This document shows positions 18,124-39,194 of a stretch of DNA of 39,194 nt, one piece after another (the first letter of the stretch is position 1; every line of letters begins with the position of its first letter). The DNA is from an uncultured Prolixibacteraceae bacterium (GTDB lineage: Bacteria > Bacteroidota > Bacteroidia > Bacteroidales > Prolixibacteraceae): positions 1 through 39,194 of the forward strand of contig CAILJH010000092.1 in assembly GCA_903834475.1 (NCBI GenBank). Reading direction: 5' to 3'. The position numbers and the translations under genes were made by a program. Under the pieces are notes generated by a model. That model saw only the letters and a program-made list of their open reading frames with translations. It had not been told where the DNA came from and made no database searches.

Positions 18124-24176
<6,053 letters not shown>

Positions 24177-36756: not shown

Positions 36757-36862
36757 AAGGTTTTAGATTTAGTGGTTTACATTAAATTAGTCATTTGGTA
36801 AATATAGAAAATATATCAAATAAGATATTTTATTTCCGGTTTTTATTCTTTTTAGAACACCA

Positions 36863-36985
36863 CCAGAAACAAGTATAGCCCGATAAGAATCGAGCTAGTT
36901 GTAATGGGTTATATGTTTGCGTTAAAACTTCTAAACCGGGATGGTTTTGAAAATACCTGAGTTGAACATGAACAATTAAGGAACA
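36863..36985 (+). repeat. 123-bp direct repeat, left copy
   Basis: Identical over 123 bp to 39072-39194, 2,209 bp away. Potential structure: a 9-bp stem (36873-36881 with 36906-36914, with G-T pairs) and a small AAACC/GGTTT hairpin at 36933-36947. The right copy touches the window edge, so the full repeat is probably longer. Confidence 0.95.
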
Positions 36986-37125
36986 AGTATTAATCAAAAG
37001 CCAGAACGGGTTGCGAACGTCAATATTTTTCAAGAACAATTAATAACTAAGGAACAAGTAGTAATCATTAAAACACTAAAACACAAGTTTGAACAAGAAT
37101 GTGAACCAGTATTAATCATTAAAAC
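36964..37125 (+). repeat. Three degenerate tandem units of a peptide-gene leader
   Basis: Units starting at about 36964, 37034 and 37091 share GAACA..AAGGAACAAGTA or GAACCAGTA followed by TTAATC or GTAATCATTAAAAC. The last unit (37103-37125) is an exact inverted counterpart of 38906-38928 upstream of the peptide gene. After the first and third units TTGCGAAC recurs, as TGCGAAC also does in the peptide gene's first codons. Confidence 0.65.
37103..37125 (+). repeat. 23-bp inverted repeat, left arm
   Basis: Exact reverse complement of 38906-38928. The right arm is the 5' leader of the double-glycine peptide gene, just upstream of its ATG, so this arm is a plus-strand copy of that leader. Confidence 0.85.
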
Positions 37126-37160: not shown

Positions 37161-38684
37161 TTAATTTTCTGAATATTTCATTTTGCGAAGGATTGCCTGA
37201 GCTTTTTGCTGATAGAATCCCGAGTTTTTAGCTATTTCACTAAATTGATTGAAAGCTTTTTTGTCTTCGTTTGTTTGCAGGTAACACAATCCGATATACC
37301 AGTCTGCCTGTTCGACGAAAAGGTTGTCTTTATTGATTTTTACGGTATTATATTCCTTGATTGCATTTTGGTATTTTCCTGTTTCCTGGAGCGCTACTCC
37401 GGAATAAAAATGGCCTACCATATTGTTCTGATCCCTTGAAACGACTTCTTGAAAAAGGTTCAGCGCAGTATTATAATCCTGGTTATCAAATTTTTGCAGG
37501 GCGGCAGTAAGTTTCTGGTCAGTTGTGGAACTTGCAGAACGGTTGATGCCTGTTGTTTGATAGGTGGTGTAAAATTTCTGATACAGTTCGCCCTGCGATG
37601 ATTGTCTGGATAATAGTCCGGCAATTCCCAGAAGCAGGATGAGCGAGGCAGCAACCGAAGCGAAAACAAACTTCCGGGCTTTAAATTGACCGACAAATGA
37701 TTGTTCAGTTTGTTTTTCAGCAGCAATTTCGCCTGCAATATTTTGAATTTTGTTTCTCAGGTTCATGACATCATTTTCTTTCAATGCCAGGTCGATGTTA
37801 CGCATCAGGCTGATCTCATCAGAAAGTTCCTGATTATTGGCTAATTCGGCCTCAAACGATGCGAATTGGTCATCGGAAAGCTCGTTGTACAGGTAGCCTT
37901 CAATTTCTTCTATCCTGGAAGATGAGTGGAACTCTGAATTCTGGATTTCAATGAGTGAAGCCCTCAGGTCCATGATGTCATTTTCAGCCCATGCAAGGTC
38001 GATATCCCTGATTAGCTGAACATCGTTTGCCAGGCTTGTATTTAGGGCTAATTCTTCTTCAAACTGAGCCCTGGTATCAGAATCCATGCGACCGAATACG
38101 TATTCTTCGATCTCTTCGGCTGAAAATTGGTGAGCCGGAACGGTCTGTGCAATTTGTTTTAAATTGGCTCTGATTTCGAGTATGTCGCTTTCTTCGAGCG
38201 CATTCTGTACTTCAGAGAAAAGGTTTTCTTCGTAAGCGGAGAAAGATTCCTCGTCACTTACCGGATTTGCATCCGCTGCTTGTTCTTTGTAGAACTGGTG
38301 AATGTTTTCCTTACCGGCAATCTGGTGTTGGTAAAGATGTATTTTAGGGAATGAATGTTCTATTTTGCTGATCGCTTCAGAACTTACCTGACGGCTCAGG
38401 CTTTCCCATGATGCCAATTCTTCGGATAGACCGAAATTGAATGAATCGAAAGCATTAATATTTTCTGTATCAGATTGATTTTGAACGATATTGTTCAGGT
38501 TTTTACGCAGACTGATCAGGTCTTGTTCAGCAATAGCCTGTACTACTTCCAGATGAAGATTAAGTTCATCGGCCAGGTCAGAGTCGATAGCCATCTGGCT
38601 TTCGATTTCATTCGATTCAGATTGGGTTAACTCTGCATCGAGATACCGGTCAATTTGCTCAAAATGTTCTGATTTGCGTATCAT
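37161..38684 (-). CDS. Membrane protein with four anti-sigma-like repeats and TPRs
   Basis: A 507-residue protein without a signal peptide. The N-terminal ~320 residues hold repeated modules: about 7-70, a half-module at 149-182, then 187-250 and 257-320. Each ends in a motif of the form ExDhxxLRxxLxxI (EQDLISLRKNL, ESDILEIRANL, ENDIMDLRASL, ENDVMNLRNKI). The full modules begin IExYLxxEL then FExEhAxNxxL, like the cytoplasmic end of Bacteroidota anti-sigma factors, but the zinc-binding HxxxCxxC is absent. One transmembrane helix follows (about 338-358), then TPRs (about 391-495) outside the cytoplasm. This topology suggests a membrane sensor or scaffold. It lies 84 bp downstream of the double-glycine peptide gene on the same strand. 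No sigma-factor gene is in view. Confidence 0.75.
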   Translation of the reverse strand: MIRKSEHFEQIDRYLDAELTQSESNEIESQMAIDSDLADELNLHLEVVQAIAEQDLISLRKNLNNIVQNQSDTENINAFDSFNFGLSEELASWESLSRQVSSEAISKIEHSFPKIHLYQHQIAGKENIHQFYKEQAADANPVSDEESFSAYEENLFSEVQNALEESDILEIRANLKQIAQTVPAHQFSAEEIEEYVFGRMDSDTRAQFEEELALNTSLANDVQLIRDIDLAWAENDIMDLRASLIEIQNSEFHSSSRIEEIEGYLYNELSDDQFASFEAELANNQELSDEISLMRNIDLALKENDVMNLRNKIQNIAGEIAAEKQTEQSFVGQFKARKFVFASVAASLILLLGIAGLLSRQSSQGELYQKFYTTYQTTGINRSASSTTDQKLTAALQKFDNQDYNTALNLFQEVVSRDQNNMVGHFYSGVALQETGKYQNAIKEYNTVKINKDNLFVEQADWYIGLCYLQTNEDKKAFNQFSEIAKNSGFYQQKAQAILRKMKYSEN

Positions 38685-38768: not shown

Positions 38769-38897
38769 TTAGTTCAGACCAGCATATGAATCAGCCGATT
38801 TGCCACCTTTTACTAAAGAAAGTTCTTCTGAGGTTAAAACGTCGAAAGAGAAAGAATCAAAATTTGTTGTTTGGTTGTTCGCAGTTAAAGTTTTCAT
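38769..38897 (-). CDS. Double-glycine leader peptide, 42 residues
   Basis: A very small gene read ATG (38897-38895) to TAA (38771-38769). It begins MKTLTANNQTTNF and contains the leader motif LTSEELSLVKGG (residues 21-32), an excellent fit to the LSxxELxxIxGG double-glycine leaders cut by C39-peptidase ABC exporters. The predicted core after the GG is ten residues, KSADSYAGLN. The leader is acidic (D and E clusters), as usual. A mature product this short fits a pheromone or a modified peptide better than a large bacteriocin. No C39 exporter, modification enzyme or immunity gene is in the window. The frame is open only on this strand; the overlapping plus-strand frame is basic and lacks family features. 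Its leader is duplicated in nearby repeats. The anti-sigma/TPR gene follows 84 bp downstream. Confidence 0.75.
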   Translation of the reverse strand: MKTLTANNQTTNFDSFSFDVLTSEELSLVKGGKSADSYAGLN

Positions 38898-38905
38898 TTT
38901 TTTTG

Positions 38906-38928
38906 GTTTTAATGATTAATACTGGTTC
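38906..38928 (-). repeat. 23-bp inverted repeat, right arm (peptide leader)
   Basis: Exact reverse complement of 37103-37125, ending 8 bp upstream of the ATG of the double-glycine peptide. It therefore lies in the mRNA leader or promoter of that gene. Confidence 0.85.
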
Positions 38929-39071
38929 CTTAATTATTCTTGTTCGATGGTTTATCCCCAGAATCGACAAAAGGTAACCCTGTATTTAGAAAAAAAATGA
39001 AAAAATATTTGAATATTATTTTAATGATCTAAATATCAATACGATAAATAAAAATTAAAATTAGAATATTT

Positions 39072-39194
39072 CCAGAAACAAGTATAGCCCGATAAGAATC
39101 GAGCTAGTTGTAATGGGTTATATGTTTGCGTTAAAACTTCTAAACCGGGATGGTTTTGAAAATACCTGAGTTGAACATGAACAATTAAGGAACA
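39072..39194 (+). repeat. 123-bp direct repeat, right copy (cut by window edge)
   Basis: Identical to 36863-36985 and in the same orientation. Homology runs to the last base of the window, so the true right boundary is outside. By analogy with the left copy, peptide-leader units may follow on the plus strand. Confidence 0.95.

Follow-up and report, generated by a model that had tools for sequence, protein, structure and literature searches.

A conserved double-glycine precursor peptide gene that accompanies a TPR-CHAT protein and an ECF sigma factor in Prolixibacteraceae

The window analysed here (39,194 bp, the whole of contig C92) contains a small minus-strand ORF of 42 codons that is a real, conserved gene for a double-glycine precursor peptide, beyond what chance would produce. 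Comparison of related genomes gives good support to its membership of a locus that also encodes a caspase-like TPR-CHAT protease, an ECF sigma factor and an anti-sigma-like membrane protein with C-terminal TPRs (hereafter asTPR). Our favoured reading, to which we give slightly more than an even chance, is that the peptide is the short, linear, exported signal arm of an ECF sigma switch composed of CHAT protease, anti-sigma and sigma.

An earlier, sequence-only reading of this DNA had proposed a 42-residue double-glycine peptide with a ten-residue core, and the translation bears it out exactly: from an ATG start, the leader MKTLTANNQTTNFDSFSFDVLTSEELSLVKGG, ending in LTSEELSLVKGG, is followed by the ten residues KSADSYAGLN (Table 1). 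That reading had named a conserved frame in related genomes and a bias towards synonymous substitutions as the marks of a true gene, and both were found. The peptide was matched in 20 of the 23 genomes of the window's genus (none in G003, G005 and G021), the weakest match (G008, E 0.004) being partial, in a contig that stops inside the gene. For 16 distinct 42-codon DNAs (the window and 15 relatives, longer or cut relatives being excluded), pN/pS was 0.284 over the whole peptide, 0.239 in the leader and 0.386 in the core. The other two sense frames were interrupted by stops in 16/16 of these DNAs, as were two of the antisense frames, the third having stops in 7/16. Moreover, the 60 nt preceding the ATG are almost invariant in 17 aligned genus sequences. 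Genus conservation, pN/pS, this invariant upstream region and the association with the CHAT locus rule out a spurious ORF.

Table 1. Positions in the window of the precursor gene, its neighbour and the associated non-coding elements.
Feature	Coordinates	Strand	Description or basis
Double-glycine precursor gene, 42 aa	38769..38897	-	translation; genus conservation; locus association in relatives
Leader, residues 1-32	38802-38897	-	
Core KSADSYAGLN, residues 33-42	38772-38801	-	
Stop codon	38769-38771	-	
asTPR, 507-aa membrane protein directly downstream of the peptide	37161..38684	-	three anti-sigma-like helical repeats (by eye), TM 334-363, C-terminal TPRs
ECF-like promoter GGGTTACCTTTT-N13-ATAAA	38951..38980	-	begins 83 nt before ATG; 17/17 genus sequences
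Conserved 5'UTR CCATCGAACAAGAATAATTAAGGAACCAGTATTAATCATTAAAAC...	38898..38950	-	alignment of genus sequences
5'UTR element, inverted copy 1, 3' flank of asTPR	37091..37125	+	
5'UTR element, inverted copy 2	37034..37081	+	
5'UTR element, inverted copy 3	36964..37006	+	
134-nt direct repeat, left copy	36852..36985		3' flank of peptide-asTPR unit; 97% identical to right copy, spacing 2209
134-nt direct repeat, right copy	39061..39194		contig ends in repeat

The window's own genome (G000, 66.3% complete) yielded no CHAT match and no sigma match, and the contig breaks exactly where relatives have the remainder of the locus. As an example, the single-contig genome G001 shows in order a TonB-like protein (by eye), the ECF sigma factor, the TPR-CHAT protein and two peptide-asTPR units that are divergent from the CHAT gene. 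Named genomes were scanned with an alignment of the sigma factor, and the best 80 of 129 loci were used. These 80 belong mainly to Prolixibacteraceae (Sunxiuqinia, Mangrovibacterium, Draconibacterium, Maribellus, Mariniphaga, Prolixibacter, Puteibacter and MAGs), with some MAGs of other Bacteroidales, and a CHAT match longer than 150 residues was present in 61 of them. The genus-type locus also occurs in MAG records labelled Odoribacter sp. and Chitinophaga pinensis (L083, L087), labels that look doubtful.

The association of the peptide with the CHAT gene was counted on 92 CHAT ORFs from loci L032-L154. Seven with less than 300 nt upstream were dropped and identical upstream regions collapsed, leaving 67 distinct loci. 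With a leader pattern written after the peptides of the first locus maps were known, a double-glycine ORF divergent from the CHAT gene, at most 700 nt upstream, was found in 63 of the 67; the controls gave none on the same strand, none in the 3' flank and 0.18 expected in shuffled sequence. A wider peptide set was used for these locus counts, since a narrower first set missed the Sunxiuqinia-type peptides. The four remaining loci are L066, where the peptide is cut by the contig end, L107 and L151, which offer less than 400 nt of room, and L147, where the double-glycine ORF lies 1.5 kb off. In a sample of the phylum, 3 of 395 genomes had a sigma match at E <=1e-35, and relatives of asTPR and CHAT lay near sigma in all three, the CHAT relatives being 25% identical (over just 340 residues in L220). 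The triad occurs there without the peptide: no double-glycine peptide was found near CHAT in L219, L220 and L221, from genomes of two other families. A 207-aa protein adjoins CHAT in two of these three loci. A defence system was also considered and rejected: PADLOC recognised only CHAT, through a single generic TPR match, and did not match sigma, asTPR or the peptide.

The contig ends in the right copy of the direct repeat, which suggests that another peptide-asTPR unit follows on the right. In G001 two successive peptide-asTPR units are identical over 2220 bp, and the same tandem arrangement was found in G012, G011 and G103 (2200, 2192 and 2497 bp identical). Among the 20 peptide-bearing genus genomes, five have two copies, and in 12 a copy lies within 500 bp of a contig end, as compared to 0.92 expected from contig sizes alone. 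Given the tandem units of relatives and this excess near contig ends, the window's contig most likely ends inside a tandem peptide-asTPR array. The identity of tandem units over 2.2-2.5 kb in four species (L032, L064, L034, L037) suggests recent duplication or gene conversion. Elsewhere in the window, a long row of glycoside hydrolase-like genes (3667-25272, plus strand, by eye) is probably a polysaccharide-use cluster.

The CHAT protein matches PF12770 with 201.1 bits (cut-off 24), and the CHAT-site residues His778 and Cys826 are present in 72/72 distinct proteins. By hydropathy, 71 of the 72 have a C-terminal transmembrane segment and 45 a hydrophobic segment at the N-terminus, and this pattern suggests that the protease is periplasmic and tethered to the membrane. 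A model of the L078 protein (pLDDT 83.8, pTM 0.75) matched Craspase TPR-CHAT/Csx29 entries of the PDB at ranks 1-4, then the anti-sigma factor DdvA and separase, with low TM-scores (0.23-0.45 by query length). Its further matches, which include many TPR proteins, extend to kinesin light chains in complex with cargo peptides, one of these peptides a tryptophan-acidic motif, and the CHAT profile matched the TPR protein NprR (4gpk, E 2.9e-10), again among many TPR chains. The sigma factor matches PF04542 (29.1 bits, cut-off 24) and TIGR02937 (49.2 bits, cut-off 42.9), and was found at >=85% identity in 19 of the 23 genus genomes, those without a match being G000, G003, G007 and G021.

Members of the asTPR family combine C-terminal TPRs with a single transmembrane segment (detected in 72/75) and between one and three helical repeats that look anti-sigma-like by eye. 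The match of asTPR to NF052375 is sub-threshold (34.4 bits vs 100), and in more than 20 of the 80 loci (best 80 of 129, from match coordinates) the start of asTPR overlaps the end of the sigma gene. From this NCBIfam match and the gene order, asTPR is probably the anti-sigma factor of the locus's ECF sigma. Its structural model was poor (pTM 0.33), and the structure search returned TPR-type matches only, with no anti-sigma fold match. We also considered a leader-like segment in asTPR ('FDSFNFGLSEEL') and rejected it; its score exceeded the 95% shuffle level in L064 and L067 only, whereas in most pairs it did not (36 vs 38 in the window).

In E. coli, the periplasmic protease DegS is switched on by short peptide ends and cuts RseA, the membrane anti-sigma of sigma-E. 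In the type III-E CRISPR system, a TPR-CHAT protease (Csx29), the inhibitor (Csx30) of an ECF-like sigma factor and the sigma itself (CASP-sigma) are encoded together; Csx29 cleaves Csx30, and the passages covered of the same paper draw the DegS/RseA parallel for this system (PMC10028731). Csx29/Craspase entries are also the first four PDB matches of our CHAT model. The loci described here differ from type III-E in that reading them by eye revealed no Cas7-11 or CRISPR array, CHAT has a C-terminal transmembrane segment and is probably periplasmic, asTPR is a membrane protein and a double-glycine leader peptide is the conserved partner. They differ from DegS/RseA in having a TPR-CHAT protein and a dedicated precursor peptide in place of a PDZ/trypsin-like protease and porin C-termini. 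The DdvS/DdvA pair of Myxococcus xanthus likewise consists of an ECF sigma and an anti-sigma factor that spans the membrane, and DdvA structures (8rw5, 8rot) were matched by the CHAT model at ranks 5 and 7 (E ~2e-12, TM-score 0.23-0.24); there, however, DdvA itself is the anti-sigma factor. The signal inducing DdvA is described as unknown in the passages covered of PMC4374960, which make no mention of a double-glycine peptide.

Our favoured reading is supported at the level of sequence by the divergent placing of peptide and TPR-CHAT genes, the invariant CHAT His and Cys, the presence of the ECF sigma and asTPR in the locus, and, as described below, the selection on the core in one group, the orthology of the exporter and the promoter. 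A C39 transporter would cut the leader at the double glycine and export the core. In the periplasm, the core, usually aromatic-acidic, would be bound by the TPRs of the CHAT protease and/or of asTPR, altering CHAT activity so that CHAT would cleave asTPR. Sigma would then be freed for transcription from GGGTTACC-N17-ATAAA promoters, among them the one before the peptide-asTPR operon itself, and feedback on this operon would yield more signal together with more anti-sigma. The proteolysis and sigma-release steps are proposed because Csx29 cleaves a sigma inhibitor and because of the DegS/RseA parallel (PMC10028731, passages covered). The exported peptide would thus take the place of the misfolded porin ends of DegS/RseA, or of the target RNA of Csx29/Csx30/CASP-sigma.

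The peptide could instead be a substrate of CHAT, or its pseudo-substrate or inhibitor, the exported core occupying the protease or being trimmed by it and so keeping CHAT off. We regard this as unlikely, although the strict divergent pairing of the two genes and the short, mostly aromatic-acidic cores agree with it, and multiplied peptide-asTPR units would suit a titrating factor. The core has no recognisable cleavage site, but Craspase orthologues cut non-conserved sites (PMC11106740, passages covered) and sequence is therefore no guide to cleavage. The same-strand adjacency of peptide and asTPR in the genus, L149 and L153 points equally to the anti-sigma side.

Export was examined through the C39 exporters. 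The remark of the sequence-only reading that no exporter is adjacent is true within the window, that is, within a whole contig broken off where the locus continues in relatives. In L149 and L153 (Bacteroidales/Marinilabiliales MAGs), a co-directional row comprises the peptide, asTPR, a HisKA-type gene, two LytTR genes, a C39 exporter and an HlyD-type gene (domains checked with Pfam for L149 only), and L147 has three consecutive genes, its double-glycine ORF, a C39 gene and one of HlyD type. Prolixibacteraceae genomes have a C39 gene, with a neighbour of HlyD type (194 aa, shortened, in G014), beside rpsL-rpsG-fusA-like genes (by eye), a position found in all six genomes from which the region was fetched (G001, G015, G014, G011, G040, G103). 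In a comparison of ten proteins, these six orphan C39 proteins are 62-68% identical to those of L149, L153 and L147, and in the single-contig genome G001 the orphan is the sole C39 match. PF03412 was detected in 125 of 140 family genomes and in 22 of the 23 of the genus; G007 has the peptide, yet neither a C39 match nor a sigma match. The sequence comparison supports the orphan C39 as the probable exporter of the peptide in relatives, and export itself is predicted.

The C39 protein of the window's own genome (contig C242) was rejected as the exporter. It is only 25-29% identical to all the exporters above (same ten-protein comparison) and has its own double-glycine peptides of 61-66 aa 2-4 kb away, and for these reasons we judged it to serve other clients. 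The suggestion that a remote C39 exporter would be used is supported by relatives with their orthologous orphan gene, but the window's own 66%-complete genome has a C39 of another subfamily. Paralogous peptides were also sought there, and a single peptide copy was found in this incomplete genome, tandem units being seen in relatives. The three double-glycine leader peptides near the C242 exporter (L036, 14036-15229, minus strand) look class-II-bacteriocin-like by eye. In L154, beyond sigma, CHAT, peptide and LytTR, 18125-20193 (plus strand) encodes a VKOR-type thiol oxidase-like protein (by eye) and three short Cys-containing double-glycine leader peptides.

Leaders of the double-glycine type carry hydrophobic residues at -4 and -7 before the two glycines, and the window leader has V at -4 and L at -7. 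The closeness to the family consensus claimed from the sequence alone holds for these two positions, but not at the curated cut-offs of the profile models: the window peptide scores 14.5 bits with TIGR01847 (cut-off 15.7) and 21.2 bits, E 2.8e-4, with PF10439 (class IIc bacteriocin, gathering cut-off 27.1). Two of five relatives pass TIGR01847, with 17.3 and 15.9 bits. TIGR04149, a model of rSAM-modified RiPP precursors, gives the window peptide 12.4 bits, under its cut-off of 25. Gathering relatives by leader pattern (hydrophobic -4/-7 and GG) gave 78 unique peptides with cores of 10-27 residues, 31% Asp+Glu and a mean charge of -2.7. There is no Cys among their 1209 core residues, which excludes a Cys-type core and agrees with the earlier remark that the core lacks the Cys of lanthipeptides. 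Of 66 unique cores, 49 contain the motif D-x-[FYW] (14.5 on average and at most 25 in shuffles), a contrast inflated by relatedness. The Draconibacterium core of L137 reads GTPKSRDKDIFDFEEE; non-acidic cores occur in two clades, and L053 has one precursor with the core written twice.

Paralogous precursors allowed leader and core to be compared. In seven distinct Draconibacterium-type loci with three precursors each (L046, L048, L049, L070, L071, L131 and L138, with L144 and L137 duplicating L046 and L048), leaders are 34-53% identical and cores 81-100%. All three cores are identical as proteins in L048/L137, L049, L070 and L071, where DNA differences are only synonymous; they are one residue apart in L046/L144 and L131, and 81-94% identical in L138. 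The same tendency to keep the core while the leader diverges was seen in L074 and L115. The Prolixibacter-type loci L047, L100 and L101 (leaders 45-100%, cores 73-100%, counting true peptides) and L154 (51% and 50%) do not show this contrast. Judged from these alignments, the core is under selection in the Draconibacterium group.

These properties bear on the kinds of peptide that the sequence-only reading had listed, namely bacteriocin, pheromone or modified-peptide precursor; signalling fits best and a bacteriocin less well. There is a small chance that the peptide is a bacteriocin directed against competitors, with the sigma circuit merely regulating its production, as the double-glycine leader, the PF10439 match (under the cut-off) and the C39 exporter of relatives would allow. 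Cores of this length, composition and negative charge speak against it, and so does a core that evolves slowly and is common to paralogues in the Draconibacterium group; no adjoining immunity-like gene was recognised by eye. Still less probable is a RiPP precursor whose maturase is encoded elsewhere: the leader weakly resembles the TIGR04149 model, but the cores have no Cys, and reading the listed locus ORFs by eye revealed no modification enzyme or rSAM enzyme. Finally, an unexported peptide with an intracellular role, in which the 'leader' would be the functional part, is very improbable, since the good conservation of the genus leader (pN/pS 0.24) is set against Draconibacterium-group paralogues that diverge in the leader and not in the core, and against an orthologous C39 with its HlyD-type partner in the same gene row as the peptide in L149 and L153.

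Across 17 genus sequences, one of them from the window, the ECF-like promoter block upstream of the peptide and the next ~50 nt hardly vary. The pattern was found at 54 sites in 22 of the 23 genus genomes, the reversed-pattern control giving one, and the shorter pattern with N17 at 68 genus sites vs 13 in the reversed control. L149 and L153 have an identical block with identical spacing ahead of their peptides, and Prolixibacter-type and L102-L104 peptides have a variant of it (GGGTAACC...TATTAA or similar) at about the same distance. Among 77 upstream regions taken with the narrower peptide pattern, which missed Sunxiuqinia-type peptides and included a few non-peptide ORFs, the strict pattern was present before 20 (shuffled 0.02) and a relaxed one before 30 (shuffled 0.85). 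The pattern was not found upstream of the peptides in the Draconibacterium/Maribellus group, and preceded 0/92 CHAT genes and 1/101 sigma genes. G021 (99% complete) has no peptide and no sigma match, yet retains two sites, and the motif may therefore serve a second sigma; G005 has the sigma and neither peptide nor promoter site. Both G021 and the pattern-less Draconibacterium group argue against a private sigma-promoter pair.

In 11 genus genomes, a site lies 58-78 nt ahead of a gene for a protein of 73-78 aa (..NFYGLIFDCPV..C..), the loci being L181 in the window's own genome, L199 in G001 and nine more of the genus; one member, scanned against Pfam and NCBIfam, had no match. The only three sites of G001 are those of its two peptide copies and of this gene. 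Other sites, among those read, lie before various genes or before none recognised.

The 5'UTR element recurs in inverted orientation behind asTPR. Eleven genus units, window included, have two or three inverted copies each; the best copy in these and in two further genus units scores 33-60, vs shuffle maxima of 25-31, four genus rows with a cut asTPR being uninformative. Outside the genus, inverted copies were found in L055 (50 vs 25) and L040 (34 vs 26), barely in L044 and L037 and not in L045. Loci that lack asTPR after the peptide, Sunxiuqinia-type ones included, showed none immediately behind the peptide gene. The predicted duplex of the window's 5'UTR and 3' flank has -45.5 kcal/mol (shuffled mean -18.3, minimum -28.1). 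The transcript ends could thus pair, and end-to-end pairing of the mRNA or antisense control is possible.

RRNPP/Rgg-type TPR receptors are cytoplasmic proteins of Gram-positives. With these receptors, and with double-glycine pheromone systems that use C39 (PCAT) exporters, the present locus would share the leader, the predicted PCAT export, a short linear signal and putative TPR receptors, but here the bacterium is Gram-negative and the TPRs belong to a protease and to an anti-sigma-like protein. Bacteroidales RiPP clusters also have double-glycine precursors with PCATs, some with TPR or HK/RR genes, but the clusters described have modification enzymes; in the passages covered of that paper 'sigma' is absent and 'chat' occurs in author names (PMC10352776). 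The covered passages of a paper on graspetides contain neither 'CHAT' nor 'sigma' (PMC8939145). In the literature searched, seen in part and without subscription journals and preprints, we found no description that links a double-glycine peptide to both a CHAT protease and a sigma factor; within that scope the parts of the locus are of known kinds and their combination was not found. We put forward only tentatively, as a possibility short of an even chance, that the locus represents a new class of cell-cell signalling, in which a dedicated exported peptide acts in the periplasm through a TPR-gated CHAT protease, whose cleavage of a transmembrane anti-sigma releases an ECF sigma to transcribe the operon of signal and anti-sigma.

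To our knowledge, the input signal is unknown for many ECF sigma/anti-sigma sets of Bacteroidota. Here the locus itself offers a candidate sigma input, a core of 10-27 residues behind a double-glycine leader. Cultured Draconibacterium, Sunxiuqinia, Mangrovibacterium and Prolixibacter carry the locus, which makes it accessible to a synthetic peptide with a defined promoter as readout. The CRISPR-associated arrangement of Csx29, Csx30 and sigma would gain a non-CRISPR counterpart and, if the proposed signalling class is true, this would be a Gram-negative peptide pheromone system whose receptor output is caspase-type proteolysis.
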